Notes: generated by a model not told the origin, from the sequence alone. Numbered from the stretch's first letter, positions 41,812 to 57,376 are shown. The stretch is DNA of 64,000 bases from Azospirillum cavernae (GCF_003590795.1 NZ_QYUL01000001.1:575001-639000); one strand, 5' to 3'. Program-made: numbers and translations.

Positions 41812-43865
41812 GCCTCACCCTCTCCGTTCCGTTGTTTTTGAGCGACCTTGGCGCACCAGCGCCGCCACAACGCGCGGTAAACACGCTCCAGATGGCGGGC
41901 CATGCGGGGGGCGTCGCACAAAGAAGAAGCCAAAACCCGCTCCCGCAGCCCAGCCCGCAGCGTCGCCAGCCCATGGCTGTCGGTCGCCGCACGCTGGGCG
42001 ATGGCGATGTAATCGTCGGGCGAGTCGGCGATGAAGGACGTCAGTCCGACGGTCGTCAGGATGGAGGCGCTCCACCGGGCGACAAGGCGCGGCTGCGGCA
42101 GGGTCACGACCGGCACGCCCATGAACAGGGCCTCGAAGGTGGTGGTGGATCCGCTGAAGGGGAACGGGTCGAGCGCCACGTCGACGCCGTCATACAGCGC
42201 CAGATGCTCGGACACGCTGTTCAGGCTGCCGGGCAGGAATTCGACCCGCGTCGGATCGACGCCGCCCGCCACGAGGTGGTCCAGGATGCGCGCACGGCAG
42301 GCCGGGGCGTCGTAGTGTTTTTGATACTTCAACCGCAGCCGCGCGTCCGGCGTCGCGCTCAGCACCCTGGCCCACAGATCCAGCGTCGCGTCCGACATTT
42401 TGGCCGGGTTGTTGAAGCAGCCAAAGGTGGGAAACCCGTTGCGCAGCAGCGGCGGCGGGGTCAGCGGCGGCGGATCATCCGGCGGCGCCATGATGACGTA
42501 GGAGGGCAGGCGCATCAGACGTTCGGTGAAACATTCGCTCAGCGGGCGGGCGCCGATCACCCGATCAACGATCAAGGCGTCGATCACCGGCATGGCGCTG
42601 GTCGTCACGTCGTGGTGGCTGATCTGGACCGGCGCCGGTTGGTGGGCGCAGACGCTGAGGCGGTTCCCGTCGAAATGCCCGGCGAGGACCACCAGAATGT
42701 CGATGCCGTCGGAGCGGATTCCCTGGGCGAGCGCCTCGTCGCTCAAACCGGCGACCATGCGCCAGCCGCCGCTCAACGCCTGGAACCGCTCCACGGTGGG
42801 GTCGAGGATGGGAATGTCGGAATAGACGAACAGGTCGAACCGCTCGCGGTCATGCGCCCGCAGAACCGGCTCAAGGTTGCGCGCCACCGGCTGGGCGGCG
42901 TGCAGATCGGTGCTGAGATAGCCGACGCGCAGGCGACGGTTGGGATCCGGCCAATTGGCGTGCGCGGGATCCTGCGGATAGAGCGGGCGCAGGAAACGCT
43001 CCTCGAACGCATGCGCCGCTTGAAAGCATGGTTCGGCGTCGGGCAGCGGCAGATACAGCCCGGCGCTGGCGATCGCGTTGACGACGTCGATCCGGTGCGG
43101 CGCCAGCCGGTTGGCGCGGGCAAGGCACATCGCCGCCTCACGCGGGCGGGAGAGGTTGAGCAGGCTGCAACCCATGTTGTGCAGCGCGTCAACATGGGTC
43201 GGGTTGGCGGCGAGCGCGACGCGCAGCCGAACCTCGGCCATGTCGTGCCGCCTCGCGTCCACGACGTCGAGCCATGCCAGATTGAAGGCGGCGGCGCTGG
43301 CGGGATCCAGGCGGGCGGCGCGGTGGAGCGCTGTTCGCGCCTCTTCGATCCGCCCGATCTGGCCGCTCATCGCGCCGACGTCCAGGATCGGCCCGGCGGC
43401 GCTGGGGTCAAGCGCCGACTGAACGCGGGCCAGGGGAATCGCCTCCGCGTAGCGACCCTGCCAACCCCAGCGTTCGCAGAGCTGGCGCAGCGCCTCGACG
43501 ATGTCGCCGCGCAGCCGCAGCGCGCGGCGGAGCAAGGTCTCCGCAACATCCTGATGACCGGCGGCGTTGAACACGGCGGCGGCGGAGAGGAGATGGGCCG
43601 GGGATTCTGGGGACAAGGCCAGGGCGTGCAGCAGATTTTGCGCGGCAAGATCGTGACGACCAGATTGCGAGGCCAGAACGCCAAAAAGTTGCCAGACATC
43701 AGCCTGGGCTGGCTCGCGTTCCAGAATCAGCCGGTATTGCTCCTCCGCTTCGGCGACGCGGCCGGATTGGTGATGCGCGAAGGCGGCGATCAGCGGCGCG
43801 TTGGTGTCCAACATGGTCGATGCGGGAATGGTGAGCGGGAACGCCACCATAGCGGGCGGGGCCAT
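41808..43865 (-). CDS. TPR protein with GT41 (O-GlcNAc transferase-like) glycosyltransferase domain
   Basis: A protein of up to 685 residues. The N-terminal half is a stack of TPR repeats (for example HHQSGRVAEAEEQYRLILEREPAQADVWQLFGVLA). The C-terminal half carries the GT41/SPINDLY-like domain: RLRVGYLSTDLHAAQPVARNL, PAPVQISHHDVTTSAM, FGCFNNPAKMSDATLDLWARVL, RVEFLPGSLNSVSEHLALYDGVDVALDPFPFSGSTTTFEALFMGVPVVTLP. Such enzymes transfer sugars to protein Ser/Thr. The start is ambiguous (ATG 43865, 43850 or 43814). It lies 39 bases after an ABC exporter gene and is coupled to the methyltransferase. Confidence 0.9.
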   Translation of the reverse strand: MAPPAMVAFPLTIPASTMLDTNAPLIAAFAHHQSGRVAEAEEQYRLILEREPAQADVWQLFGVLASQSGRHDLAAQNLLHALALSPESPAHLLSAAAVFNAAGHQDVAETLLRRALRLRGDIVEALRQLCERWGWQGRYAEAIPLARVQSALDPSAAGPILDVGAMSGQIGRIEEARTALHRAARLDPASAAAFNLAWLDVVDARRHDMAEVRLRVALAANPTHVDALHNMGCSLLNLSRPREAAMCLARANRLAPHRIDVVNAIASAGLYLPLPDAEPCFQAAHAFEERFLRPLYPQDPAHANWPDPNRRLRVGYLSTDLHAAQPVARNLEPVLRAHDRERFDLFVYSDIPILDPTVERFQALSGGWRMVAGLSDEALAQGIRSDGIDILVVLAGHFDGNRLSVCAHQPAPVQISHHDVTTSAMPVIDALIVDRVIGARPLSECFTERLMRLPSYVIMAPPDDPPPLTPPPLLRNGFPTFGCFNNPAKMSDATLDLWARVLSATPDARLRLKYQKHYDAPACRARILDHLVAGGVDPTRVEFLPGSLNSVSEHLALYDGVDVALDPFPFSGSTTTFEALFMGVPVVTLPQPRLVARWSASILTTVGLTSFIADSPDDYIAIAQRAATDSHGLATLRAGLRERVLASSLCDAPRMARHLERVYRALWRRWCAKVAQKQRNGEGEA

Positions 43866-43904: not shown

Positions 43905-45770
43905 TCAATCCATCGCCAGATGGGCCAGATGCGGGGAGGCGGCTTTTACGACGGGCCAAGGGCCGGATGCGACCAGCCGCCCGGCGTCGAGGACGATGAC
44001 ATGGTCGGCGAACTGAACGGTCGATGGCCGGTGAGCGATCAGCACAATCGTGATGCTGGCCTTCAGAGTCTGCATCACGTTCAGGATGCGCTGTTCGGAT
44101 TCATGGTCAAGCGCGCTGGTCGCCTCGTCAAGAATCAACACATCCGGCCCCGACAGCAGCGCCCGCGCCAAGGCCAGCCGCTGGCGCTGACCGCCCGACA
44201 GCAAGGCGCCGCGATCACCCACCATGGTGTCGAGGCCCTGGGGAAGCGCCCGGACGAAATCGGCGGCGTCGGCCTGCTCCAGGGCCGCCCACAAGCGTTT
44301 ATCGCCGTCGCCGCCGCCGTTCGCCCGGCACGCGATGGCGAGATTGACCCGAACGCTGTCGCGGAACAGGAAGCTGTCCTGCGGCACATACCCGACGCGC
44401 CGCCGCCAGGACCGCCGCGCCGCGCCTCCGGCCACCGGCTGGCCGTCGATCAGCATCCGGCCCTGGTCTGGTTCGATGAGGCCGAGCAGCAGGTCGGCCA
44501 GCGTCGATTTTCCGGCGCCCGACCGCCCAACCAGGGTGGTGACGGCGCGCGCGGGCACGACCGTGTCGATGCCGGACAAGGCCCATGGGCCATCCGGGGT
44601 GTACCGGATCCCAACGCCGTCCAACCGCACCCCCTGCGTCAGCGCCGCCGTGTGGGACAGGTCGGCCGGTGGCGACGCGGCAGGCGTTTCCGAGTCCACC
44701 ATGTCGGTTCGGCAGCGGTTCAGAAGGTCAAGCACGGCGGCGTGGGCGGGCAGCGCGTGCAGCACGATCCGCCAAGCGTCCTGGATGCGCTGCGCCGTGG
44801 TGAGAAGCCGGGCGAAGGCCGCCATCAACACCAGGGTTCCGGCCAGTTCCATATCCAGAACCCGCACAGCGAACCAGACGGCGACCGCCGCCGCCGTTGC
44901 CGCCAACCCCTGCGTCACCGCGCGCGCCCATCCGGATTGGCGTTGAAACGCGATCATGTCGGCGCGGACGTCGCGCATGCGCGTTTCAAAAAGCCGGGCG
45001 CGCTCCGCCTCCAGCCCGATGGCGCGGATCACCCGCATGCCGGCCAGATCCTCCGACAAGTCGCGGTGCAGGGCTTGCATCCCGGCCACGGCTTGCCGCC
45101 CGAGTCGGTGGGCGTGGCGGCTCAATGGCCGCGACAGCGCCAGAGACAGGGCGCCCAGCGCCAGCGCCGCGCCGGTCATCGTAGGCGACAGCCGCAGCGC
45201 CACGGCCAACAGAACCGGGATTTCCACCGCCCAACCGGCGGAGCGGAGCAGGAATTCCAGACCGTTCGCGGCGCGTTGCGCCTCGCCGATCACCGCGTTG
45301 ACCACCTCCGCGCCAGCCAGCCGGTTGAAGGCGCGCCATTCCATCCCGGCGACCGCCTCGTGCAGTTGGCGGCGCAGATGGTCGACATAGCCGAGCCGCA
45401 GGCGCGCCACCCGATCCCCGCGCGCCGCGATCACCAGCGCCGCCGCCGCGACCAGGATCACATAGAGCGCCAACGCGCCTTCCAGCCCCAGAGGCGCCAG
45501 CCACAGATCGCCTTTTCCCGCTTGTCCGCCCCCAACCCCGACCATCGACAAAAGCGGCGCCAGCAGCAGCAGGCCCGCCCCTTCAGCCAGGGCGGCGATC
45601 ACGGTCAGCGCCGCCAGCCCCCCCAGCCGCCAACCGGCGAACGCGGCGACGTCATGGAGGAAGCGCGCGAATTCGCCGATTGGCGTCTTGGCGGCCAACC
45701 AGAGGCGGGGCAGATGGAACTGGAACAACGGCATGTTGGTTCGCGGCTTTCTGGCGGGCGGGCGGCGCAA
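43905..45770 (-). CDS. ABC exporter (fused membrane and ATPase domains)
   Basis: A protein of up to 621 residues. About six membrane helices (from WRLGGLAALTVIAALAEGAGLLLLAPLLSMV on) are followed by an ATPase domain with Walker [10 protein letters not shown], signature LSGGQRQRLALARALLSG, Walker B VLILDEATSALD and H-loop IAHRPS. It belongs to the exporter class that includes lasso peptide exporters (McjD) and lipid flippases. It lacks an N-terminal C39 peptidase domain. Next to the lasso cluster but divergent from it, it is the best candidate in the window for peptide export. First gene of the operon with GT41 and methyltransferase. ATG 45734 is an alternative start. Confidence 0.9.
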   Translation of the reverse strand: MRRPPARKPRTNMPLFQFHLPRLWLAAKTPIGEFARFLHDVAAFAGWRLGGLAALTVIAALAEGAGLLLLAPLLSMVGVGGGQAGKGDLWLAPLGLEGALALYVILVAAAALVIAARGDRVARLRLGYVDHLRRQLHEAVAGMEWRAFNRLAGAEVVNAVIGEAQRAANGLEFLLRSAGWAVEIPVLLAVALRLSPTMTGAALALGALSLALSRPLSRHAHRLGRQAVAGMQALHRDLSEDLAGMRVIRAIGLEAERARLFETRMRDVRADMIAFQRQSGWARAVTQGLAATAAAVAVWFAVRVLDMELAGTLVLMAAFARLLTTAQRIQDAWRIVLHALPAHAAVLDLLNRCRTDMVDSETPAASPPADLSHTAALTQGVRLDGVGIRYTPDGPWALSGIDTVVPARAVTTLVGRSGAGKSTLADLLLGLIEPDQGRMLIDGQPVAGGAARRSWRRRVGYVPQDSFLFRDSVRVNLAIACRANGGGDGDKRLWAALEQADAADFVRALPQGLDTMVGDRGALLSGGQRQRLALARALLSGPDVLILDEATSALDHESEQRILNVMQTLKASITIVLIAHRPSTVQFADHVIVLDAGRLVASGPWPVVKAASPHLAHLAMD

Positions 45771-46098
45771 CCCTAGCGAACCATCCGCCGGGTTGGAACC
45801 AAGACCGAGCGGGCGAGGCGTTCGAGTCGGGCTGGAAAGGGCCGTTCAAGCGCTGCGGCGATTATCAAAGGTGGAATTTTATTGCAAACAAAACACGTTT
45901 ACATGTCGCGCGGCTCCTATTGCTACACAATTGAAATTTCCGGCGCACCCGTTTGCATGTGTTGTCTGTGTTTGTCACAATTTGATGAGACAAGACAAAA
46001 TCAACTCATGATATATGCTGTTGGCAGTATCCGAGGTTGTCGGTCGCAATCGGCCCAGACGCCTCGGATTTGGTGGCAAGGCTGGGAGGAGGGACGCC
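45771..46098. other. Divergent control region, ABC exporter / tail-collar genes
   Basis: About 330 bases with a clearly AT-rich middle (45868-46020) containing TGCATGTGTTGTCTGTGTTT and GATATATGC. It must hold the promoters for both divergent operons. No confident -35/-10 pair or operator was picked, and no small open frame with a good ribosome site was seen. Confidence 0.45.
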
Positions 46099-46641
46099 AT
46101 GAGCGATTGGTTCCTAGGTGAAATTCGACTGTTTCCGATGAACTGGGCTCCGCAAGATTGGCATGTGTGTGACGGAACTGTCATGCAAATCCAACAGAAT
46201 CAGGCGCTGTACTCGCTGATCGGGACGACCTACGGCGGGGACGGGAAAAACACCTTCCAATTGCCCGACCTGCGCGGACGGGTGCCGGTCGATCAAAACT
46301 ATAACGACACTTCGGGCGAGTATGTGCGGGGCAAGGCCATGGGCGTGGAGACCGTGGCGTTGACCGCCGCGCAGACCCCCCAGCACCAGCACACGCTGAA
46401 CGTGTTGAGTACGGCGGGCGCCACAGCCAACTCGGTTGGGTCCAGCATCTCCGGGACGGCGACAAGCCCCATCGTTCTCGTGGCGCCAAACCTTTTCGCC
46501 TCACCCGGCCCGGCTCCGATACCGCTCAACCCGGCCGTCCTCTCGACGACAGGCGACGGCGCGGCGCACAACAACATGCAGCCTTTCCTGGTTTTGAACT
46601 TCTGCATCGCCACAAGCGGCATCTATCCGCCGCGCAACTGA
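46099..46641 (+). CDS. Phage tail collar domain protein 1
   Basis: A 180-residue protein of the MdpB/tail-collar type. The N-terminal collar domain reads FLGEIRLFPMNWAPQDWHVCDGTVMQIQQNQALYSLIGTTYGGDGKNTFQLPDLRGRVPV, the family hallmark. It is followed by a His-rich turn (QTPQHQHTLNV), a variable Ser/Thr/Gly stretch, and the closing NMQPFLVLNFCIATSGIYP. GGGAGGAGGGA precedes ATG 46099. Three such genes in a row with no other phage gene suggest a cellular surface or secreted filament rather than a prophage. Function unknown. Confidence 0.9.
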   Translation: MSDWFLGEIRLFPMNWAPQDWHVCDGTVMQIQQNQALYSLIGTTYGGDGKNTFQLPDLRGRVPVDQNYNDTSGEYVRGKAMGVETVALTAAQTPQHQHTLNVLSTAGATANSVGSSISGTATSPIVLVAPNLFASPGPAPIPLNPAVLSTTGDGAAHNNMQPFLVLNFCIATSGIYPPRN

Positions 46642-46675
46642 TGACGACCAGAAACCTTAGGAAAGGAAACACCCC

Positions 46676-47236
46676 ATGAGTGATTATTTTGTTGGCGAAA
46701 TTCGCTTGTTCGCTGGAAAGTACCCACCAGCCAACTGGAATTTGTGCGACGGCACCCTTCTGAAGATCTCCGAGTATCAAGCCCTCTACGCCATAATCGG
46801 CACGACCTATGGCGGCGACGGCGTCAACACTTTCGCCCTTCCGGATCTGCGTGGCCGCATTCCGATTGGCCAGGGTACGGGGACCGGCCTGACAAATCGC
46901 GTGTTGTCCCAGAGCGGCGGCGCCGAGACCGTCGCCTTGACGGCGGCGAACATGGGGCCGCACACCCACAACCTGGTGACTGCGGGCGCCGCCGCCGCCA
47001 GCCCGACGCCCGGCCCCACCGTCATGTACGCCAACACGGCGTCGCCGACGACTCAGTATCTTAAGTCTGGCTTGGGGACCGCTGGCGCGACGCCGACCAA
47101 TCCGATCGCCGGCACGATTTCCACCGCTGGCTCAATTTCCACCGCTGGCTCAGCGACGGCGCACCCCAACGTCATGCCAACCGCCATTCTGACTTACATG
47201 ATCGCCTTGAATGGCACTTTCCCCACCCGCGCGTAA
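46676..47236 (+). CDS. Phage tail collar domain protein 2
   Basis: A 186-residue relative of the preceding gene product: FVGEIRLFAGKYPPANWNLCDGTLLKISEYQALYAIIGTTYGGDGVNTFALPDLRGRIPIGQG is the collar domain, then MGPHTHNLVTAG (His-turn), a low-complexity ISTAGSISTAGS repeat, and PTAILTYMIALNGTFPTR. It starts 34 bases after its neighbour with AAGGAAA upstream. The internal repeat of STAGSI indicates a flexible linker. Confidence 0.9.
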   Translation: MSDYFVGEIRLFAGKYPPANWNLCDGTLLKISEYQALYAIIGTTYGGDGVNTFALPDLRGRIPIGQGTGTGLTNRVLSQSGGAETVALTAANMGPHTHNLVTAGAAAASPTPGPTVMYANTASPTTQYLKSGLGTAGATPTNPIAGTISTAGSISTAGSATAHPNVMPTAILTYMIALNGTFPTRA

Positions 47237-47251
47237 GAGAGGGGCAAAAAT

Positions 47252-47836
47252 ATGGACGCCTTTATCGGAGAAATCCGCATTTTCCCCTTTGGCTATATTC
47301 CGCAGGGTTGGCTCGCCTGCAATGGCGGGCAATACAATGTGCAGGACCATCAAGCGCTCTATAGCATCATTGGCAACACCTGGGGTGGCACAGCGATGCA
47401 GACCTTCAAGGTGCCCAACCTTGCGGGTTTCTGCGTGATGGGGCAGGGCACAGGCCCCGGCCTGTCGCCCCGGTCGTGGGGCGCCACCACGGTCGGCGCC
47501 AAGACGGCGACGCTCAACTCTGCGCAACTGCCCTCGCACACCCACACGCTGACCATCCAGGGAGCGGTTCCGGCCCAGGCATTGACGAACACCACGGCCA
47601 CGCCGACCGCCAACCAATCCTGGCTGGCTCGTCCGGTGCAGCCCAATTCCACGGGCGCCAACGCGGTGCCGGCCTACACCAAGGTCACAACCCCCAACAG
47701 CACCCTGCACCCCAACACCATCGCGCCCGCTTGCGGCATCGCGGCCGGCGCGGTGAGTCCGCACGAGAATCGGCAGCCTTACCTGACCATGGTGTTCGCC
47801 ATCAACGTTGACGGCGTATACCCGGTGCGGAACTGA
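47252..47836 (+). CDS. Phage tail collar domain protein 3
   Basis: A 194-residue third member: FIGEIRIFPFGYIPQGWLACNGGQYNVQDHQALYSIIGNTWGGTAMQTFKVPNLAGFCVMGQG shows the same collar domain, though the DLRGR motif is changed to NLAGF. Then LPSHTHTLTIQG and ENRQPYLTMVFAINVDGVYPVRN. It starts 15 bases after gene 2 and has GAGGGG upstream. The three proteins differ mainly in the middle segments, as expected for subunits of one assembly. Confidence 0.9.
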   Translation: MDAFIGEIRIFPFGYIPQGWLACNGGQYNVQDHQALYSIIGNTWGGTAMQTFKVPNLAGFCVMGQGTGPGLSPRSWGATTVGAKTATLNSAQLPSHTHTLTIQGAVPAQALTNTTATPTANQSWLARPVQPNSTGANAVPAYTKVTTPNSTLHPNTIAPACGIAAGAVSPHENRQPYLTMVFAINVDGVYPVRN

Positions 47837-47846
47837 TCTTTTGCCG

Positions 47847-48371
47847 GTGACGCCCAAACCAACCCTCGCGCCGCCCGCCCCTTGGGCGGCGCGAGGGTTC
47901 GCCTTGCGGACTGAAGCCGTTGAGGATGCTCCCTTTTTGTTGCGGCTCTACATGTCCGTGCGGATGGCGGAGCTGGAGCCGACGGGGTGGCCCGAGGCGA
48001 TGAAACACGCCTTCCTGACCTCCCAGTTCGCGTTGCAGACGCGCCATTACGCCGCCGCTTACGCCGATCCGGATTTCATGATCCTGACCTGCGGAGACGA
48101 ATCGGTCGGACGGCTGTATCTTGCCCACACCGACGCGGATTTGCGCGTCGTGGACGTGTCGCTGTTGCCGGAACGGCGGGGGGGCGGGCTGGGGCGCGCG
48201 CTTCTTCAGGCCGTGCAGGCGCGGGCGGCGGACGACGGGCGAACGGTGAGTCTGAGCGTGGACATGCGGAACCCGGCGCAAAATCTCTATCGCCGCTTGG
48301 GTTTCGTCGAGGATGGAACGGAAGGACCGTCCTGGCGTATGATCTGGCGCTCACCCACCCCGCCAGCGTGA
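47847..48371 (+). CDS. GNAT family N-acetyltransferase
   Basis: An acetyltransferase of about 174 residues. The fold starts at GFALRTEAVEDAPFLLRLYMSVRMAELEP, and the acetyl-CoA motif is VVDVSLLPERRGGGLGRALLQAVQARAADDGRTVSLSVDMRNPAQNLYRRLGFVEDG. The start is uncertain: GTG 47847, TTG 47808 (overlapping the collar gene) or TTG 47902 after the hairpin. It follows the collar genes and precedes the lasso precursor, so it could acetylate either product, but nothing in the sequence tells which. Confidence 0.88.
   Translation: MTPKPTLAPPAPWAARGFALRTEAVEDAPFLLRLYMSVRMAELEPTGWPEAMKHAFLTSQFALQTRHYAAAYADPDFMILTCGDESVGRLYLAHTDADLRVVDVSLLPERRGGGLGRALLQAVQARAADDGRTVSLSVDMRNPAQNLYRRLGFVEDGTEGPSWRMIWRSPTPPA
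47861..47899 (+). terminator. 16-base perfect hairpin after the third collar gene
   Basis: AACCCTCGCGCCGCCC (47861-47876) pairs perfectly with GGGCGGCGCGAGGGTT (47884-47899) around a 7-base loop, 24 bases after the collar gene stop. There is no T-run. It falls within the 5' end of the GNAT frame, so it could act as an attenuator, or it may show that the GNAT start is further downstream. Confidence 0.6.
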
Positions 48372-48522: not shown

Positions 48523-48681
48523 ATGAATTCGCGTGACTCCTTGAATCCGGTGAATGCCGCGCCCGTTCTTGGCAAGAAGGCCTGGATGGCTCCGGAAATC
48601 CGCGATCAGGCCATCAAGAGCCTCACTGAAGCAAAAACCAACCAAACGAATGAAACGGATCCTTCTTTCGGCCCGTCGTAA
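48523..48681 (+). CDS. Lasso peptide precursor
   Basis: A 52-residue peptide. The leader has an aromatic-x-x-Pro motif (W21-x-x-P24 in KKAWMAPEI), the place where B1-type proteins bind, and a conserved Thr at the penultimate leader position (T35 in SLTE). Cutting after E36 gives a 16-residue core AKTNQTNETDPSFGPS: Ala1, acceptor Glu8 for an 8-membered-count ring, and C-terminal Ser16. By established knowledge lasso rings join residue 1 to Asp/Glu at 7, 8 or 9. AAGG lies 8 bases before ATG 48523; an in-frame ATG at 48478 is unlikely. The core codons are less GC-rich than the neighbours. The kinase gene follows after 52 bases. Confidence 0.82.
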   Translation: MNSRDSLNPVNAAPVLGKKAWMAPEIRDQAIKSLTEAKTNQTNETDPSFGPS

Positions 48682-48733: not shown

Positions 48734-49645
48734 TTGTTTTACTATCGAGTCTGCGGTCTTGCCGTCGCATCCGATTTTCCTCTTCCAGGGATGGTGATCG
48801 CAGACGAGGTCTTGTCTCAGACGGATGTGCGCGTTCGGTGCGGCACGGCGCCAGCAGCGCTGGACGCCGCAATTCGGGTCGGGCCGACGTGGCAACTTGA
48901 CGACGCCGCTTTTCTGTTTCGGGTTCCACAAGTCGCGCGTTTCCTCGTCACGAATGGAAACGAGGTTGTCGTTGATCTCCACGCGTCGTCGACCACCACC
49001 GACGCCGCGCCCTTCCTGCTGGGCACCGCCTTCGGCGTCTTGCTTCATCAGCGCGGACAGCTTGTTTTGCACGCCGCCACCCTTTCGTATCGGGGCCGGG
49101 GGGTGGCCTTGTGCGGCGTCACCGGCGCCGGGAAATCCACCCTGGCGGCGGCGCTTTGCCAGGCGGGTTGTGATTTCGTTGGCGACGACGTCGCCGCCAT
49201 CCGCTTCGATGACGGCGGTGTGCCCACCATCCTGCCAGATGGGCGGCAGCACCGATTGTGGATGGACGCTGTCGAACAGCTTGCGCTGACCGATTGTCTG
49301 GGACCGCCAGTTCGACCATGCCTTAAAAAATTCCACGTTGATCCGCCGAGGATGGCGACGCAAGGACCGACGCCGCTAACCACGATCATCATCCTGCGGA
49401 AAGCGGATTCACCAGGTCGGTTCGATTTGACGCCGCTGGATCCTGTCGACGCCGCTGCGTTGGTGCGCGACGAGGTGTATCGCTCAAAGACGGCCAGCCA
49501 TCTGGGGCGCGACGCTGACCTGTTCCAGCAGATCGCCGCCTTGCTCGGTCGGGTTCGGGTTTTTCTGCTGGACCGCGCCATGGATTTCGCATTGCTGGAC
49601 GACACGGTCGCCGCTGTGCTCGCGCAGATCGACAAGGAGGTGTGA
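48734..49645 (+). CDS. HPr-kinase-like lasso peptide kinase
   Basis: A 303-residue protein of the HprK-related family that, in characterised clusters (paeninodin type), phosphorylates the C-terminal Ser of the lasso precursor. The kinase core shows His113 in VLHAATLSYRG, Walker A GVTGAGKST (128-136) and the GDD acid pair at 150-152. The N-terminal YYRVCGLAVASDFPLP segment is typical of these stand-alone kinases. The start must be TTG 48734, because a stop codon lies 6 bases upstream in frame and the next ATG is residue 20. The C-terminal Ser of the adjacent precursor fits its expected target. Confidence 0.88.
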   Translation: MFYYRVCGLAVASDFPLPGMVIADEVLSQTDVRVRCGTAPAALDAAIRVGPTWQLDDAAFLFRVPQVARFLVTNGNEVVVDLHASSTTTDAAPFLLGTAFGVLLHQRGQLVLHAATLSYRGRGVALCGVTGAGKSTLAAALCQAGCDFVGDDVAAIRFDDGGVPTILPDGRQHRLWMDAVEQLALTDCLGPPVRPCLKKFHVDPPRMATQGPTPLTTIIILRKADSPGRFDLTPLDPVDAAALVRDEVYRSKTASHLGRDADLFQQIAALLGRVRVFLLDRAMDFALLDDTVAAVLAQIDKEV

Positions 49646-50496
49646 TGCCGTCCGGGGGCAAGATCGTTTGGCTCGCCTCTTACATGAAATCAGGCAACAC
49701 ATGGCTTCGGTTGCTGATCGCCAATTATCTTTTCGCAGCCGACGCGCCAATCGACATCAACCGGATTGATCTGAACAGCCCTTATCCGGTTCGGAAGGAT
49801 TTTCTTGAGGAAAAAAGCATCGTTGATCCGAATCTGCTCAGCTTTGACGAAACAAACCTTCTCCGCTCCATCATTATGGAGGATTTTGTCCAGCGGTGCG
49901 ACAGGATCAATTGCATCAAGGTCCATGACAAACACGGCGTCACCATCGATGGCACGCCTCTCTTCGGGCGGGGGGACGCTTGGTCAGCGGTTTATATTCT
50001 CCGCGACCCGCGCGACGTGGCTGTATCGCTGGCGTTTCACTACAATGTGACGTTCGACCGCGCGATCAAGATGCTGAACAACCCCAAACAGCGGATCGCT
50101 GGATATCGTGGCAAATACGTCCCGCAGGTTGAGCAAGGGGTCAGCGATTGGAGCGCCCATGCCGCAAGTTGGGTCGACCAATCCGATTTTCCCGTCCATA
50201 TCCTGCGATTCGAGGATTTGCGGGCCAATCCTGTGGAGGCGTTCGGCGCGGTGGTCGCCTTTATGGGGCTTGAAAAGCGACAGGAACGGGTGGAGCGCTC
50301 CGTTCGCTTCAGCGATTTTACTGAGTTGCAACGTCAGGAGCGCCAATCCGGTTTCTCCGAACGCTCGTCGCGATCAACCGCGCCTTTCTTCCGATCCGGT
50401 CGGGTTGGAGCCTGGGCCAAGGTTCTGACCACGGCGCAGAGCGACGCCATCGCCGCCGCCCACCACCCGATGATGGAACGATTCGGGTATTTGTGA
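49645..50496 (+). CDS. Sulfotransferase domain protein
   Basis: A 283-residue PAPS-dependent sulfotransferase. The 5'-phosphosulfate loop is SYMKSGNTW at 12-20, the 3'-phosphate motif is ILRDPRDVAVSL around 118-129, and a catalytic-type His94 sits in KVHDKHG. ATG 49645 overlaps the kinase stop (TGATG) and has a perfect AAGGAGGTG ribosome site, so kinase and sulfotransferase are made together. The obvious peptide target is the lasso product, with Ser or Thr as acceptors (the core has four Thr/Ser besides the C-terminal one). PAPS can be supplied by the CysC domain of the cysNC gene. Confidence 0.9.
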   Translation: MPSGGKIVWLASYMKSGNTWLRLLIANYLFAADAPIDINRIDLNSPYPVRKDFLEEKSIVDPNLLSFDETNLLRSIIMEDFVQRCDRINCIKVHDKHGVTIDGTPLFGRGDAWSAVYILRDPRDVAVSLAFHYNVTFDRAIKMLNNPKQRIAGYRGKYVPQVEQGVSDWSAHAASWVDQSDFPVHILRFEDLRANPVEAFGAVVAFMGLEKRQERVERSVRFSDFTELQRQERQSGFSERSSRSTAPFFRSGRVGAWAKVLTTAQSDAIAAAHHPMMERFGYL

Positions 50497-50576
50497 TAAG
50501 CATGCCGGGCAAAAATGCCCACCGAGCGGCGCGGCTGACGCCGGGGCCATGCAGGGGCAAGACGACGGAGACATCC

Positions 50577-50876
50577 ATGAACAACCCGACGGAAGCTTGC
50601 GGAACGCTTCGCCGCGCCGATGGCCTGCTGACCGCCGATGTCGACGGGGAACTGCTGATGATGAGCGTCGAGCAGGGCCGTTACTTCAATCTGAACTCCG
50701 TTGGCTCCCGCATCTGGGAACTGCTCGCGGCGCCGGTGGCGGTCGATGAGTTGGTGGACGCGCTGACCGCTGAATATGACGTGGCCCCCGACGAGGCCCG
50801 GCAGGAGGTCGAGCGTTTTCTGGGCGCGCTGCGCGAACGTGGCCTGCTCGTCACGGACAATGCGTCGGCTGCGTAA
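50577..50876 (+). CDS. PqqD-family leader-binding protein (lasso B1)
   Basis: A 99-residue RiPP recognition element of the PqqD fold. It runs ADGLLTADVDGELLMMSVEQGRYFNLNSVGSRIWELLAAPVAVDELVDALTAEYDVAPDEARQEVERFLGALRERGLLV, the standard three-strand/three-helix pattern. Such proteins bind the leader of the precursor and hand it to the B2 protease. GGAG precedes ATG 50577. The B2 gene begins inside its last codons (17-base overlap). Confidence 0.92.
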   Translation: MNNPTEACGTLRRADGLLTADVDGELLMMSVEQGRYFNLNSVGSRIWELLAAPVAVDELVDALTAEYDVAPDEARQEVERFLGALRERGLLVTDNASAA

Positions 50877-51396
50877 ACTCCTCGCCCTGCCGTTGGCGGA
50901 TCAGTGGCTGGCAGCGGAGGCGGCGGTCTGGTTGGCGTTGGCGCAGCTTCTGCTGGCGGTTTTGCCCTTCCGGTGGATCGCGATCAGCCTTGGTCCCCTG
51001 GCGCGTGAACGATCCGATGGAGCCGTCGCCCCGGTCGATCTGATTCGGCAGGCCCAAGTCCGGCGGATCGGTCAGACGGTTGAGCGAACCGCCCGCCATC
51101 TGCCATGGACCGCGCTTTGCTTGCCCCAGGCGCTCGCCGCCAGGGCCATGTTGGGCCGACGCGGCATTCCCGCCACCGTGCATTTCGGCATGGCTCTGTC
51201 CGATGACGAAACGACCGATCAAGAGGCGACTGAGGGCGGGCGGCGGATGCTGGCCCATGCCTGGGTGACGGTTGGCCGGACGGGGGTGGTTGGGACGCCC
51301 GCCGCCGGGCGTTTCGCTGTGGTCGCCCGCTTCACCCATGAAACGGGCAATCACGAAACGGGCAACCACGAAACGGACGGCCAAACCGTTGGGTGA
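50860..51396 (+). CDS. Lasso peptide leader peptidase (B2, transglutaminase-like)
   Basis: A 178-residue cysteine protease of the lasso B2 family that removes the leader. Cys87 lies in WTALCLPQALAARAMLGRRGIPATVHFG and His133 in LAHAWVTVG, the expected Cys-His pair and spacing. The usual acidic third residue about 12 positions after the His is not evident (VVGTPAAG). The C-terminus carries three copies of HETGN-like repeats (from 15-base tandem DNA repeats) that are not part of the family. ATG 50860 overlaps the B1 gene. The hydrophobic N-terminal stretch WLALAQLLLAVLPFRWIA is normal for the family. Confidence 0.9.
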   Translation: MRRLRKLLALPLADQWLAAEAAVWLALAQLLLAVLPFRWIAISLGPLARERSDGAVAPVDLIRQAQVRRIGQTVERTARHLPWTALCLPQALAARAMLGRRGIPATVHFGMALSDDETTDQEATEGGRRMLAHAWVTVGRTGVVGTPAAGRFAVVARFTHETGNHETGNHETDGQTVG

Positions 51397-51429: not shown

Positions 51430-53340
51430 TCAGTGATGTTGCCGAACATAGGAAATAAAGCGTAAAACACGCGGCGCCGTTTCCGCAACCTTGCGCAAAG
51501 CCCGGTCGCCACCCAATTCGCCCGAGCGGCGCAACGCCTCTTCCGGGGGCGGCAAGGCGCGCAAACGCTGTTCCAAAGCCTCCAGATCGAACAGCGCGTT
51601 GATCCGTGGGTGTCCGCGCAGGTCGGAAAGCTGACGGAGCAGCGTGTCGCGTTGCAGGGCGACGACCAGGGAGGCCTCGGGAAAAGGGGTATGTTTGGTG
51701 GAGTTTTTAAGGATCTTGTCCGGCAGGATTCCAATCATGGCGTCGCGGTACAGCCGCCGCGAAACACCGTCGCGCAGGAACAGCGCGCTTGGCAACGACA
51801 GCGCGAATTCGATCACCCGACGGTCGAGCAGGGGGAAAGCGGCGGCAATGCCGGTGCGGGCGCCCGTCAGCGCCCAATGTTCGGGCCGCCGCGTCAGAAC
51901 CGGCCCGTTCAGGAGGCGCAGACGATTGGCGACGGCGTTGGGGCGCATCGGCGGCGACGGCGGGGGGACGCCGCCCATCGCCTCGTTGCGCAACAGCAGC
52001 CTGATTGAGGTCATTGGCGCGCTGTCCCGCGTTCTGCCGAGCAGACTCCGGGCGAAGGTCTGAATGGCGTCTGGCAGCAGATAGTTCAGCACCTCGCCAC
52101 GCAGCGTATCCGTCATCAAACAGCCCCTGGCGACGGACACCGCCCGAATCTCGCGCGCGAACCTCCACCAGCGACCGGCGAGCAGCGCTTCGGCCAGGGC
52201 GCCGCGACCGTTGAAGGACGCCCCCTCATCGCCGCCCCACCCTGAAAGAAAAATCTGCGCGCCGCGCGCCGCCGCGTCCATGCAGATCCACGCGTTGGGA
52301 TCGGCGGGGTCGAACGGCAGGGGTTGATCGCAATCCATCCGGGGCAGCAGAAAATCCAGCGGAGGGCCAATGCGCGCGGGAATGCTGACGATGTCCGGTT
52401 CCTGGTCCAGCACCGTTTGGGCGAGCGGACCTTCGCCGTCCGGCGCATAGTCTCCCTGCGGCGTCGGCAGGAATGGGTAGGCGAGCAACGGGCGCCCCGT
52501 CGCGCGCAAGGCGCGGGCGGCGAGGACGGTGATGGAGGGGGAATCAAGCCCGCCGCTCAGGTGAGTCGCCACCGGCCCGGTTTCCGGCAGGCGGACGCGG
52601 ACCGCTTGCGTGACCAGCGCCGCCATCTCTTCGGCGGCCTCTTCCGGGCGGCAACGGTTTTGGCCTGCGGTCGCCGGGTCGAGCCGCCAATGCCGCCCGC
52701 TTTCCCGCCGACGCGCCGACACACGCGTCCACGCCCCCACCGGAAGCCGTTCAACGCCGCGAAGCACGGAGCGGTTGTTGGGCGTCCCGCGCATCAACAG
52801 CGTGCTCAGAAGGGCGGCTTCGTCGAGTTCCCGCGCGACGAAGCCGCTGGCGTTCAGGCCCCGAGGCAGCGAGGCGAAGGCGAACACCCGATCCGGTTGA
52901 TCGTTGATGAAGAGCGGTCGGACCCCCATGCCGTCACGGGCGCACAGCAGCGTTTGATCGCGCGGATCCCAAGCGGCCAGGGCGAAGTCGCCGAAAATGC
53001 CGCCAAGCCCTCCGTCGGACCCGTCAGCCTCCCGACGTTCCAGCGCGTTCAACAGCGCGGCCTCGTCGGTTTTTCCGTCGGCGCCTTCGTAGAGTCGAGC
53101 GTCAGCGGCCAGCACGAGACCGCTCGCGCCGCGCGGCAGGGCGGTGGCGGCGGGCGGGTCAACGCGCGGAATGGCGGCGGCTGGCGCAAATTCAAGCGTG
53201 GCGAGCGCCATCGGCCCTTCGACAAAACTCGCCACCGCAGGGGTCAGGCCCGACTCGATCATGGCGGCGACCATGGCGGCGAGCCGCCCGGCCTCAGCCG
53301 GTCGGCCGTCAAGATGGAGGAAGCCGCAGATCAACCGCAT
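51430..53340 (-). CDS. Lasso peptide cyclase (C, asparagine synthetase-like)
   Basis: A 636-residue ATP-dependent isopeptide synthetase that activates the side chain of the acceptor Glu/Asp and closes the ring with the new N-terminus. An N-terminal glutaminase-like domain (MRLICGFLHL, GIFGDFALAAWDPRDQTLLCARDGMGVRPLF) precedes the synthetase domain with PP-loop SGGLDS at 262-267. The rest (FLSGWGGDEGASFNGRG, AAFPLLDRRVIEFALSLP) matches AsnB/McjC proteins. It is encoded on the strand opposite to A-K-ST-B1-B2 and ends 33 bases from B2. Last gene of an operon with two oxygenase genes and an unknown gene. Confidence 0.92.
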   Translation of the reverse strand: MRLICGFLHLDGRPAEAGRLAAMVAAMIESGLTPAVASFVEGPMALATLEFAPAAAIPRVDPPAATALPRGASGLVLAADARLYEGADGKTDEAALLNALERREADGSDGGLGGIFGDFALAAWDPRDQTLLCARDGMGVRPLFINDQPDRVFAFASLPRGLNASGFVARELDEAALLSTLLMRGTPNNRSVLRGVERLPVGAWTRVSARRRESGRHWRLDPATAGQNRCRPEEAAEEMAALVTQAVRVRLPETGPVATHLSGGLDSPSITVLAARALRATGRPLLAYPFLPTPQGDYAPDGEGPLAQTVLDQEPDIVSIPARIGPPLDFLLPRMDCDQPLPFDPADPNAWICMDAAARGAQIFLSGWGGDEGASFNGRGALAEALLAGRWWRFAREIRAVSVARGCLMTDTLRGEVLNYLLPDAIQTFARSLLGRTRDSAPMTSIRLLLRNEAMGGVPPPSPPMRPNAVANRLRLLNGPVLTRRPEHWALTGARTGIAAAFPLLDRRVIEFALSLPSALFLRDGVSRRLYRDAMIGILPDKILKNSTKHTPFPEASLVVALQRDTLLRQLSDLRGHPRINALFDLEALEQRLRALPPPEEALRRSGELGGDRALRKVAETAPRVLRFISYVRQHH

Positions 53341-53374: not shown

Positions 53375-53752
53375 TCAATTGAGCGACCCGTCAAAGTCGA
53401 TGTCGACATAATGCGGCGGCGCCCAACTGTTCTGATCCGGCGTCCGGGCGTCGCGTTCCAGGCTGGCGCTGGGTGACGCGAAAGGTTCAGCGCGTTCCTG
53501 CGGCAACAGGATCAGGTCGGCTTGCCAATGGGGCATCGCCTCAACCGGAGACGACGGCGCGCTGTCCGTCGCGTCGCCGACCAGAAAGCGCAGAGCGGCG
53601 TCGAATCCCGGAGTCTCGCCTTTGGTCAGTCGCCCATGAACAAAGCCGCGCGCGCGCAAATAGGCGTCGACGTCGATGTGTTCGGCAACGCCCGCCTCGG
53701 CGTGGATCACCGCGTCGGCGAGGGGGCCTCCCACATAAGCGGACGGGATCAT
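53375..53752 (-). CDS. Unknown 125-residue protein of the lasso operon
   Basis: No domain was recognised. The N-terminal half looks folded (DAVIHAEAGVAEHIDVDAYLRARGFVHG, with FDAALRFLVG), and the C-terminal half is rich in Pro/Ser/Glu and ends PPHYVDIDFDGSLN. Its start overlaps the oxygenase stop (ATGA) and the cyclase gene follows after 34 bases, so it is surely part of the operon. It may be an adaptor for the oxygenase or the cyclase. It is too long and lacks the leader motif for a lasso precursor. Codon use is like that of its neighbours. Confidence 0.6.
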   Translation of the reverse strand: MIPSAYVGGPLADAVIHAEAGVAEHIDVDAYLRARGFVHGRLTKGETPGFDAALRFLVGDATDSAPSSPVEAMPHWQADLILLPQERAEPFASPSASLERDARTPDQNSWAPPHYVDIDFDGSLN

Positions 53753-54378
53753 GACGTGCGACGGCTCCGGTACCAGCAGTTGATGGCGAAACGCTGGTCC
53801 CTGAACGCGCCGGACGGGCAGGCGACCGGGCGCACCTCGTGGGGCGCCCAGGAGGGGAACAGCAGCAGCATGTCCTGTTCTGGCGTGATGTCCAGGAACT
53901 GTCCACCCTGTTCGGGCGGCAGGATGGAATGCAGCCGCAATTCGCCGCCGCTGTAGCTTTTGGGTTCGGCGTGGAAATAGTGCACGCCGGTCAAGGCCCG
54001 ATCCGTCGTTTTGTCGGACGGGCCGGTTCGCGTGTCGATGTGCCGTCGGTAGAACGCGCCATCGCCATGGGCGACAAGCTCAATCTCCAACCGACCCAAA
54101 TCGAAAGATGACAGGCGCAGATCGGCGACGGTCGGATCCATGACCGACAGAAAACGCGCCTCCAACGCGTCCCGCAGCGATCCGAAATCCCGCAGAACCC
54201 GTGAGACGCGCATCTCGGGATTGATTTTCCTGTCGCCAACCCCGGTGGGCCTGAAGGTGTCCCGGTTGGCTTCGGCGTGAGCCAGCAACTGGCCGATCAA
54301 ATCGGAGCCGAGAAAATTGCGGATCACCCGGTGGGGGGCGGGCTGCTCGAAAGCGCGCAGGGCGGGGGCGGTGCTCAT
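53749..54378 (-). CDS. 2-oxoglutarate/Fe(II)-dependent oxygenase
   Basis: A 209-residue oxygenase of the prolyl-4-hydroxylase-like (2OG-FeII_Oxy) group. The iron ligands are His113-x-Asp115 (RRHIDTRTG) and His180 (SWAPHEVRPV), and Arg196 (FRDQRFAINCWYR) would bind 2-oxoglutarate. The strand GGELRLHSILP precedes the distal ligand as expected. It is translationally coupled to the unknown protein and shares an operon with the lasso cyclase. Hydroxylation of the lasso peptide or of another protein is plausible. Confidence 0.9.
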   Translation of the reverse strand: MSTAPALRAFEQPAPHRVIRNFLGSDLIGQLLAHAEANRDTFRPTGVGDRKINPEMRVSRVLRDFGSLRDALEARFLSVMDPTVADLRLSSFDLGRLEIELVAHGDGAFYRRHIDTRTGPSDKTTDRALTGVHYFHAEPKSYSGGELRLHSILPPEQGGQFLDITPEQDMLLLFPSWAPHEVRPVACPSGAFRDQRFAINCWYRSRRTS

Positions 54379-54420
54379 GCTGCGATCCTGGTTCCGTCTC
54401 TGGTCAGGGCTTGTGGGTGG

Positions 54421-55704
54421 TCAGGGCGTCGGCGCTTGGTCGCACGGAAGGACGTCGAGCGCCACGCAGATTCGCGGCTCGCCCACGCCTGTGGGAATGG
54501 TCCCATGTCCAAGGAAGGAGGGGAAAATCAGCAGCGTTCCGTCCTGCGGCTCCACGCGCCAGCGTGGAAAATCCGGCAAGGATTCCCCGATGAACCGGGG
54601 CCAGGGGCCGAAGGCGAGCGATCCCGGTGGCGGCGCCTCGCGCTCCGCGCCTCGCGTCTCGCTCGTCGGAACGCGCGCGTAGTAGACGACGGTCAGCCAG
54701 CCCTGGGGATGAATGTGAGTCTCTTCGTGCCCGTCATCCGACAGGACCAGCGCCCAACCCTGCAACCGCGCCGTTTGCGGGCGATGGGCAATCAGCGGGT
54801 GCGGCGCGTTGAGACGCTCCGCCAGATAATCATCGACCTGTCGGCGAACGACGGCGAGCAGATTGCGGATCGCCGGATGTTCAACGCTGGCCAGCCCTTC
54901 AAGGCGCAGATTGCGCCCGTACGTCGGCTTGGTCTCCGGCGATGGGGCGAGCGCCGGGTGCGTCAGGATCGCCTGGGTCAGCTCCTCATTGTCGATCAGC
55001 CCGGAATCCAGTTCGATTCGGCGGCACAAATATTCCGGGTCGATCAAGCGAACGACGTCCGACGTTCGACCGGCCAAGGAAAGCGCGGCGGACAGATAGG
55101 CGAGATGAAGGGTGGAGCCGACGCCGCCGTCGATGGCCCCCTGACACAAGCTCGCCAGATCCTCGGCGGCGCCGTGCGTCAGGCAGTCGTTCGCGAAGGC
55201 GCCCAGCACCATGCTGTCGCTGGGATTCTCGTCCAGAACCTGCGCCGCCGCCGTCCGGGCCTCGTCGATCCGGTTCAGGGCGTAGAGGGCAAGGACTCTT
55301 TGTCGGCGCGCGTCTCGCGCTGTTCCGGCGATCTCTGGGGCCAAGACCCTCAACGCCAGGTCCGGCTGGTCGCAGGCGATCGCGGCCTGCGCCAACTCAC
55401 ACGCGAGCGCCGGCGTCAGCCCGCCTTTTTCCGCAAGCGGGGACAGAAGGTCGTGGATCTCCACCCAACGCCGATCGTCCCGAAGAGCGACCGCAAGATC
55501 GCGCAGCAGATCGGGGCGGTCAGGGCGCGCGGCGACGGCGGCGCGCAGCAGCGGCAAGAAAGACCGGGCGGGCGGGCGTCGTGTTGGCTGGTCCGTCCGC
55601 CAAACGATCTGGGGTCCGTGGGTTGGCATCATTCTGTCGCGCGGATTGATCTGGGGGGAGAATGGATCAAGCGGCGCTGGAGAGTAAAGCTGCATGCGCG
55701 CCAT
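54421..55704 (-). CDS. TPR-like helical protein with C-terminal 2OG-Fe(II) oxygenase domain
   Basis: A protein of up to 427 residues. Residues ~50-250 form helical TPR-like repeats (LPLLRAAVAARPDRPDLLRDLAVALRDDRRWVEIHDLLSPL and onward). The C-terminal domain matches the putative 2OG-Fe(II) oxygenase family with the THIHPQGWLTVVYYARVP motif: His330 and His332, distal His400 (FPSFLGHGTIP) and Arg411 for the cosubstrate. The His-x-His rather than His-x-Asp is the usual form for this family. It is the first gene of the operon that ends with the lasso cyclase. ATG 55704 is used; ATG 55632 is also possible. Confidence 0.85.
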   Translation of the reverse strand: MARMQLYSPAPLDPFSPQINPRDRMMPTHGPQIVWRTDQPTRRPPARSFLPLLRAAVAARPDRPDLLRDLAVALRDDRRWVEIHDLLSPLAEKGGLTPALACELAQAAIACDQPDLALRVLAPEIAGTARDARRQRVLALYALNRIDEARTAAAQVLDENPSDSMVLGAFANDCLTHGAAEDLASLCQGAIDGGVGSTLHLAYLSAALSLAGRTSDVVRLIDPEYLCRRIELDSGLIDNEELTQAILTHPALAPSPETKPTYGRNLRLEGLASVEHPAIRNLLAVVRRQVDDYLAERLNAPHPLIAHRPQTARLQGWALVLSDDGHEETHIHPQGWLTVVYYARVPTSETRGAEREAPPPGSLAFGPWPRFIGESLPDFPRWRVEPQDGTLLIFPSFLGHGTIPTGVGEPRICVALDVLPCDQAPTP

Positions 55705-55894
55705 TCCGGCGGGCCGCGCGATTCAGCCGCGCCCGATCACCGACGCAAGCGAGCCGGGAATGGACGGCGCGGACCTTCGCGGGGAATTGATCGGTTGGCC
55801 CGTCATGCTCCTATTGCTTGCTTTTGCCGAATTGATTTCCGCATGATGCGAAGGCTTTGCCCCACTTGGCCAGCCCCGCTTCGGAGATGAGGTT

Positions 55895-56689
55895 ATGCGG
55901 TCCTTGCTTTCCGGCCTTGGGCCGGACGATGTTCGTCTCGATCCTTTTCCCCATTTGGTTGTGCCGAACGCGCTGGACGAGGAGACGCACCAGCGGCTCA
56001 GCGAGACGTTTCCGCCCTTTTCGATGATCGGTTGGGCGGGTAAGGCCACGCCGCGCAGCAACTGCCGCTTTCAACTGTCGGCGTGGCAGATCATGGAAAT
56101 GACGCCGCTACCTGACATATGGAAGGCGTTCGTCGGCCATCACAGCGCGCCCGCCTTTTTTGCGGAGGTGGTGGCTCTGTTCCGCGATCATTGGCCGACG
56201 GCTCTCAAAGAGGCGCTGGGCGGCGATCTGCTGAACCATTCGATGGGGCTGATGATGCGCGACAGCTTCAATGAGGCGCGCATTCTTCAAGACGCGCGGG
56301 CCGAGATCAACACGCCGGTTACGACCGTCCCCTCCACCTCGCGGGGGCCGCATCTTGACATGCCAAATCGGCTTTTTACGTGTCTTTACTATCTTCGCCA
56401 TCCCGATGATGACGCGGTGGGGGGTGATTTGGAGCTGTTCCGTTGGAAGAATGGCCCGATCTCCAACACGGAGACATACGCGCTGCCGGGTGATTCGGTG
56501 GAGGTCGCCGCTGTCGTTCCCTACCAGGCCAATCAGATGGTGATCTTTCCGCAGGGGATCGACGCGATCCACGGCGTCAGCGTCCGCCATCCGACGCCTC
56601 ACACCCGCCGTTACGTCTTCATCAGCGCCGAGATTGAGCAAAACTGGCTGGTGTCGCCTGCGGCGGCGACAGTGTCCGGGGAGGGGTGA
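55895..56689 (+). CDS. 2-oxoglutarate/Fe(II)-dependent oxygenase, second type
   Basis: A 264-residue oxygenase. Iron ligands are His153-x-Asp155 (RGPHLDMPNRLFTCLYYLRHP) and His226 (GIDAIHGVSVRHP), with Arg238 or Arg239 (TPHTRRYVFISAEIE) for 2-oxoglutarate. It is divergent from the TPR oxygenase gene across 190 bases and is followed without gap by a sulfotransferase-like gene. GGAGATGAGG lies before ATG 55895. Together with the operon on the other strand it gives the region three oxygenase-type proteins. Confidence 0.9.
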   Translation: MRSLLSGLGPDDVRLDPFPHLVVPNALDEETHQRLSETFPPFSMIGWAGKATPRSNCRFQLSAWQIMEMTPLPDIWKAFVGHHSAPAFFAEVVALFRDHWPTALKEALGGDLLNHSMGLMMRDSFNEARILQDARAEINTPVTTVPSTSRGPHLDMPNRLFTCLYYLRHPDDDAVGGDLELFRWKNGPISNTETYALPGDSVEVAAVVPYQANQMVIFPQGIDAIHGVSVRHPTPHTRRYVFISAEIEQNWLVSPAAATVSGEG

Positions 56690-57376
56690 ATGAGGATTCT
56701 GGTTTACGGCATGCAGTCGAGCGGCTCGACCGCGTTCACGCTGTTCCTGGCGCAACGATCGGATTGTTTGGCGCTGGTCGATGTCCCCAACAATTTCGCG
56801 GCGCCCCGCATCGTTACCGACCTGGACATGGTGACGAAGGTGGTCGTGACCACGGCCTATCCTCTGGCCGTGCATCTTGAGCGTTTTCGTCCTGACCGGG
56901 TCATTCTGCTGTTGCGGGATCCCCGTGACAATTATGTCAGCCTGCGCACCAAGGGATACCGGAACTACTCCGGCTTGATCGACGAGAAATTCCTGATCCT
57001 GGATCAGATGTTCGCCGAGCGCGAACGCTTTGACGCCGTCATCGAATATGAGGATTTTGTCGCGCGGGATCCGGCTGTGCTTGAGACGATCCGGGCGCTT
57101 GGCTGGCCGGTGGAGGATGATTTCTACAACTACCGGCGCCGCCACAACGAAATGCTGGCGGCGCTGTGGCAGCATGTTCCTGATCTGATGCCGGACTTTG
57201 AGTTCGTGTTCGGCAATGTCCGTGGCGCGGAAGTTTCAAACCGTTTTGTCGGGCAGACCCGCGACGAGGAACTGGACGCCAAGTTGGAAAAACTGTGCCC
57301 CCGCTTGCTCGCCCATTACCGGGCGCGCCCGCTGACTGGCGTTAGGGCAGATCGCGTTAAATCGGGATCAATGTGA
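56690..57376 (+). CDS. Sulfotransferase-like P-loop protein
   Basis: A 228-residue protein with a sulfotransferase-type nucleotide loop (MRILVYGMQSSGSTAFTLFLAQ) and the 3'-phosphate motif VILLLRDPRDNYVSL. The loop SSGSTA differs from the usual KSGTTW, but the rest of the fold (VIEYEDFVARDPAVLETIRALGWP near the middle) is typical of bacterial sulfotransferases. It starts directly after the stop of the oxygenase gene, so the two act as a pair. It is clearly different from the sulfotransferase at 49645-50496. Confidence 0.82.
   Translation: MRILVYGMQSSGSTAFTLFLAQRSDCLALVDVPNNFAAPRIVTDLDMVTKVVVTTAYPLAVHLERFRPDRVILLLRDPRDNYVSLRTKGYRNYSGLIDEKFLILDQMFAERERFDAVIEYEDFVARDPAVLETIRALGWPVEDDFYNYRRRHNEMLAALWQHVPDLMPDFEFVFGNVRGAEVSNRFVGQTRDEELDAKLEKLCPRLLAHYRARPLTGVRADRVKSGSM

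Follow-up and report, generated by a model that had tools for sequence, protein, structure and literature searches.

The 64,000-nucleotide stretch of Azospirillum cavernae DNA analysed here (NZ_QYUL01000001.1:575001-639000; referred to as the window, with positions counted from its first nucleotide) carries a lasso peptide-type gene cluster accompanied by three intact genes for 2-oxoglutarate (2OG)-Fe(II) oxygenases, designated OX1, OX2 and OX3, the relic of a fourth (OX4) and two sulfotransferase-like genes (ST1 and ST2). The best explanation, to which we assign a probability of roughly 0.52, is a multiply tailored lasso locus in which OX1, together with OX2 and formerly OX4, would hydroxylate the linear precursor, with OX3 and ST2 forming an independent unit. 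As OX1 travels with lasso clusters and OX3 occurs in an oxygenase-sulfotransferase pair, the product of the locus is probably a lasso peptide of a so far unseen kind, both hydroxylated and sulfated.

Gene content and lasso-type character of the cluster

The genome is 6.46 Mb and its genus-mates include Azospirillum sp. TSH100 (G031) and A. ramasamyi (G027); G numbers denote genomes, C numbers contigs and L numbers the loci compared, of which four were returned by a scan of genome contigs. The local profiles used lean towards the window's own families. The genes in the right half of the window lie in the order ABC exporter, three tail-collar genes, GNAT acetyltransferase, precursor, kinase, ST1, B1, B2, cyclase, OX4 relic, OX1, OX2 and then OX3, ST2 and glmS- and glmU-like genes. 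The precursor, kinase, ST1, B1 and B2 genes are all on the forward strand (+), the cyclase gene is convergent (-) and OX3 is divergent (+). An earlier reading made from the sequence alone (the sequence-only reading) had placed three oxygenase genes around a lasso cyclase, and its open reading frame (ORF) coordinates for all three were confirmed, as was the lasso-type character of the cluster that they flank.

The PqqD-type recognition element B1 (50571..50876, +; start uncertain) scores 83.7 bits with NF033536 (cut-off 80), and the transglutaminase-like leader peptidase B2 (50776..51396, +) 68.5 bits with NF033537 (cut-off 33). The B2 ORF overlaps B1 and its true start is probably downstream of 50776. 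The cyclase-like Asn synthetase (51430..53340, -) matches PF00733 and a GATase domain, and its best NCBIfam model is lass_lactam_cya, at 194 bits below the cut-off of 525. ST1 (49642..50496, +) matches PF00685 with 77 bits. The HPr-kinase-related kinase (48734..49645, +) has the Walker A motif GVTGAGKST; it is sub-threshold for PF07475 and for TIGR04352 (HprK-related kinase A; 45.6 bits against a curated cut-off of 200), and we therefore say only that it would work like such kinases.

The strongest evidence for a lasso cluster is the precursor family, with about 35 members across the loci. These share a W-x-x-P leader motif, Thr at position -2 and, in most, Asp or Glu at ring position 8 or 9, and 30 of the 31 scored precursors end in Ser or Thr. 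Cores were delimited by hand using the Thr(-2) rule, which leaves a few (e.g. L027 and L031) uncertain. The window precursor (48523..48681, +; 52 amino acids (aa), MNSRDSL...KKAWMAPEIRDQAIKSLTE before and AKTNQTNETDPSFGPS after the predicted cleavage point) has a predicted ring A1-E8 and tail TDPSFGPS. Its ring sequence AKTNQTNE fits Thr(-2) with an acidic residue at ring position 7-9, as do most of the scored precursors, and its C-terminal Ser would suit the HPr-like kinase, paeninodin offering a parallel (PMC9266682). Ring position 1 is Ala in the window and, under the same rule, also Asn, Val, Thr, Leu and others in relatives; the ring starts other than Gly, Ala, Ser or Cys predicted in L134, L138, L140, L143, L148, L150, L168 and L185 would be unusual for lasso peptides.

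OX1, a prolyl-hydroxylase-like enzyme linked to lasso clusters

OX1 (53749..54378, -) is a 2OG-Fe(II) oxygenase of the prolyl-hydroxylase type. It matches PF13640 with 63 bits (cut-off 27), and the complete HxD...H...R set that had been read from the sequence, H113-x-D115...H180...R196, is invariant in the family alignment (11 sequences). When the OX1 profile was compared with solved structures, the first matches were P4H (6t8m, 6.9e-16) and PHD2 (about 2e-13). The likeness to P4H and PHD2 (EglN1) extends across the catalytic domain, with HxD...H conserved, at profile E-values of 1e-12 to 1e-16; OX1 differs in being set in a cluster for a ribosomally synthesised and post-translationally modified peptide (RiPP).

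Strong OX1 matches were found in 9 of 27 B2-positive and 0 of 55 B2-negative genomes of the Azospirillales (p=1.6e-5; 82 genomes, phylogeny uncorrected). The sequence-only reading had proposed co-occurrence with lasso cyclases as a check, and on this count OX1 bears it out, being confined to B2-positive genomes. At class level the OX1 loci with E<=1e-60 (in G396, G121, G175 and Tistrella G339), like that of the window, all contain a lasso cyclase. Proline is present in the core of 10/10 precursors from OX1 loci and of 14/21 from loci without OX1 (p=0.044), and an [SD]P motif, picked after the data had been seen, is present in the tail of 7/10 and 4/21, respectively (p=0.009). The likeness of OX1 to prolyl hydroxylases and the proline in every OX1-locus core point to the proline of the precursor tail as its most likely target.

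An OX1 homologue is also found in another type of RiPP cluster, a LanM/Nif11 cluster on a plasmid of Pseudanabaena galeata (L171 1-10455), where it is one of two adjacent 2OG oxygenase genes.

The oxygenase-cyclase operon and the OX4 relic

The genes for OX2, OX1, the relic of OX4 and the cyclase share one strand: 42 bp separate OX2 from OX1, OX1 overlaps the relic by 4 bp, and 34 bp lie between the relic and the cyclase. OX1 and OX2 share an operon with the cyclase, as the sequence-only reading had it, and the relic belongs to it too.

OX2 (54421..55704, -) has TPR-like matches in front of a PF13759 domain (61 bits; cut-off 27), and both this architecture and its HxH...H...R ligands were as first described. 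H330-x-H332...H400...R411 are invariant (6 sequences), with HxH rather than HxD in the homologues likewise. The C-terminal domain resembles the putative 2OG-Fe(II) oxygenases of TIGR02466/PF13759; unlike TIGR02466 proteins, OX2 scores 36 bits against a cut-off of 62.5 and carries the TPR-like front. Comparison with solved structures by sequence found nothing. Close OX2 orthologues (73-93%) were found only in the same operon, and remote PF13759 relatives lie near two further lasso cyclases (L134 and L145).

The OX4 relic (53375..53752, -) was identified by tblastn and by alignment to full-length relatives of about 280 aa in Niveispirillum (L034, identical with L023), a marine alphaproteobacterial metagenome-assembled genome (MAG; L049, identical with L024) and Hyphomicrobiales bacterium UR115 (L044). 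The window ORF aligns only with residues 1 to ~102 and 259 to 280 of these proteins. The family's invariant H192-x-D194...H251 (9 sequences) falls entirely within the deleted residues ~103-258, such that the metal triad is absent. OX4 of the Niveispirillum locus L033, whose cyclase is 95-96% identical to that of the window, ends at the same break point, which makes an assembly error unlikely. OX4 has no Pfam match and no match by sequence among solved structures; its identification as a 2OG oxygenase draws on the motif, the weak PF13532 match of one homologue (E=0.015) and the gene context. Eleftheria terrae has an OX4-sulfotransferase fusion immediately following an OX1 homologue. The sequence-only reading overlooked this fourth oxygenase, although its own left edge, 53375, is that of the relic. 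The alternative that the ORF encodes an independent small protein was rejected as it matches the two ends of the longer oxygenase.

The OX4-OX1-OX2-cyclase block is kept in the Niveispirillum L034/L023 and MAG L049/L024 loci, and OX1-OX4-cyclase in the more distant UR115. This conservation supports a tie of OX2 and OX4 to the lasso pathway. Within the UR115 operon an ATP-grasp protein (PF14397; L044 8608-9897) occupies the place of OX2. A single Niveispirillum genome holds two copies of the cluster, the degraded L033 (G071:C25), which has Gln at predicted core position 1, and L034 (G071:C34), in which OX4-OX1-OX2 are intact.

The occurrence of three such genes had been thought rare, which holds for the exact arrangement; one or two oxygenases recur in such loci, drawn from up to five types (OX1, OX2, OX3, OX4 and JmjC/cupin). 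The JmjC/cupin proteins (PF08007) were seen in the lasso loci L142/L172, L136, L168/L190, L145, L027, L031 and L148.

OX3, ST2 and the tail-collar genes

OX3 (55895..56689, +) is a distinct 2OG-Fe(II) oxygenase with a marginal PF13640 match (28.8 bits; cut-off 27). It keeps the HLD...H...R-type set noted previously, H153-x-D155...H226...R238 being invariant (15 sequences), and no relative was found by sequence among solved structures. Profile-profile comparison gave a weak relation between OX1 and OX3 (56% probability) and none between OX4 and OX1. The three intact oxygenases are of three different kinds, in line with the earlier estimate of at least two subfamilies.

Strong OX3 matches occur in 23 Azospirillales genomes, 10 of which are B2-positive (p=0.16; phylogeny uncorrected). 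Here the expected co-occurrence with lasso clusters failed, OX3 being about equally common with and without lasso genes. The sulfotransferase-like ST2 (56690..57376, +; PF13469 sub-threshold) directly follows OX3 in the window and adjoins it in 18/20 OX3 loci, the pairing being seen across the Azospirillaceae. In A. ramasamyi, collar, hypothetical, GNAT, OX3 and ST2 genes follow one another on one strand with no lasso genes nearby. The best reading is that OX3 and ST2 form a separate oxygenase-sulfotransferase cassette that belongs with tail-collar genes and not with the lasso cyclase. The recurrent pairing of oxygenase and sulfotransferase, together with the one fusion, suggests that some of the new hydroxyls are sulfated. 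A TSH100 protein annotated as an aspartyl/asparaginyl beta-hydroxylase (L172 21827-22864, WP_199228728.1) was discarded as an oxygenase; it has no Pfam match, contains a sulfotransferase-like GRCGST and is probably misnamed.

The A. ramasamyi array, and the position of OX3-ST2 next to collar and GNAT genes, would also fit an alternative in which the oxygenases modify a tail-collar or other cell-surface protein, the lasso and collar genes making up one surface or secretion system. In L032, moreover, OX1 itself is in the company of OX3, ST2, GNAT and collar genes, and the contig carries no lasso genes. This alternative is nevertheless unlikely, as OX1, OX4 and OX2 lie in the operon of the cyclase and as, in L044, L028, L034, L049, L185 and Tistrella, the sequence fetched (generally 20 kb at most) has OX1 together with lasso genes but no collar genes.

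The window contains three tandem tail-collar genes, TC1-TC3 (46087..47836, +; TC1 matches PF07484), followed by a GNAT acetyltransferase gene (47808..48371, +; PF13508) whose position is conserved. TC1, TC2 and TC3 are three orthologous groups in a fixed order (85/87 best matches), which suggests a heteromeric assembly. The triplet with GNAT was found near lasso-type clusters in the window (46087-48371), L025, L027, L029-L031, L046, L130-L150 and L155, including Pseudomonas defluvii (L025) and another alphaproteobacterial family (L046). In the Azospirillales, a collar array lies within ~10 kb on the same contig for 19/33 B2 matches, a count compared by hand in which several of the other B2 matches are on short contigs. 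At least two kinds of lasso gene are present in 27/32 fetched loci bearing two or three collar genes, a sample with some bias, as B2 or oxygenase matches had led to many of the loci. In the literature searched no paper linking lasso peptides with tail collars or tail fibers was found, though one may exist.

It is conceivable, if rather doubtful, that in these bacteria the lasso-type peptide is one component of a wider system, at the surface or for delivery, that includes the conserved set of three collar proteins and GNAT, with oxygenase-sulfotransferase pairs successively hydroxylating and sulfating the peptide, the collars or both. The recurrent linkage hints at a partner protein system for many proteobacterial lasso peptides and would bear on the role of lasso peptides without obvious antibacterial action.

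Assessment of the proposed tailored lasso locus

A further explanation is accretion, in which tailoring genes were gathered in a plastic secondary-metabolite island, some as passengers, and the pathway here is decaying. Both the internal deletion of OX4 and the decay of L033 are consistent with this. The best cyclase match is in Niveispirillum with few in its own genus (of the same-genus genomes searched, only that of the window and one other gave a match at 1e-40), a distribution that suggests recent horizontal transfer. OX1, OX2 and OX3, however, retain every ligand and different lineages, at 73-79% identity, preserve the order of the operon, and we consider accretion improbable. Least probable is the original proposal, in which OX1, OX2 and OX3 each modify the lasso precursor at a site of their own. 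It has in its favour the physical proximity of the three and the lasso genes within ~10 kb of OX3 in L130, L141, L142, L127 and L112, but is at odds with the non-significant OX3-B2 association and the many OX3 loci without lasso genes. Hydroxylation at more than one position, which the sequence-only reading also suggested, is plausible.

Several observations also weigh against a multiply tailored lasso locus. Remoter homologues of OX1, with E-values of about 1e-38 to 1e-19, are located away from lasso loci, and the proline link draws on a small number of loci, some of them related, and on a motif chosen post hoc. Next to B1, an intact B2 is missing from L034 and L049, with a 27-aa fragment all that is left in L024; these copies may be served by a B2 acting in trans, or they may be in decay. 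In the near-identical L033, OX1, OX3, B2 and OX4 are all broken. The AlphaFold models of OX4 (from two sequences) and OX1 (from three) were of too low a quality for interpretation (predicted local distance difference test scores of 39.7 and 39.5, respectively).

Proposed maturation and relation to known systems

For the tailored lasso locus we infer substrates, sites, an order of steps and threading as follows. B1 would bind the leader of the 52-aa precursor, and OX1, and probably OX2, would hydroxylate the still-linear peptide, OX1 most likely at the tail proline (Pro11 of Glu8-Thr-Asp-Pro11, Glu8 closing the ring). The HPr-like kinase would phosphorylate the C-terminal Ser, and a hydroxyl group, perhaps one introduced by an oxygenase, may be sulfated by ST1. 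B2 would then cleave after Thr-Glu, the cyclase would join Ala1 to Glu8 to give the presumably threaded product, and the ABC protein would export it. OX4 would formerly have taken part, its catalytic domain having since been lost here. By comparison with CanE and PadeK, the modifications are probably made while the precursor is bound to B1 and before the ring is closed: CanE of Streptomyces canus (canucin A) hydroxylates linear CanA, aided by B1, and PadeK phosphorylates the C-terminal Ser (PMC9266682).

As in the canucin A cluster, a 2OG-Fe(II) enzyme is encoded with B1, B2 and the cyclase (PMC9266682). CanE, as described there, is a single oxygenase acting on the C-terminal Asp, whereas the window has three intact oxygenases and one relic, of different subfamilies, with a P4H-like OX1 and sulfotransferases; CanE is likened here by description. 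With the kinase-containing paeninodin, ThcoK and SyanK clusters (PMC9266682, PMC8498205) the locus shares its HPr-kinase-like gene and a precursor family of which almost all members end in Ser or Thr; a sulfotransferase gene has also been noted in some clusters of that group (PMC8498205). Unlike that group, the window has a kinase below the curated thresholds, as well as oxygenases and tail-collar genes, which the sections of those papers considered here do not mention for the group. In the corresponding sections of the reviews, CanE is the one 2OG oxygenase described as proven for lasso peptides, and lasso peptides with hydroxyproline or sulfate groups are not mentioned. From this locus and its relatives one would expect a class of lasso peptides that are hydroxylated and sulfated several times, and the proposed action of OX1 on the tail proline provides a concrete enzyme-to-residue hypothesis.

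Neighbouring genes

The ABC exporter (43905..45770, -; PF00005/PF00664), a candidate lasso D protein, recurs in such loci. A protein of ~107 aa (VPFSLLF...EIFITPLGPD) lies beside the collar and GNAT genes in most loci (L117, L119, L131, L132, L135-L138, L141, L143, L145 and others) and was not found in the window. Adjoining the ABC exporter is a gene for a TPR and GT41 (SPINDLY/OGT-like) glycosyltransferase (41808-43865), which could be a tailoring or a surface gene.

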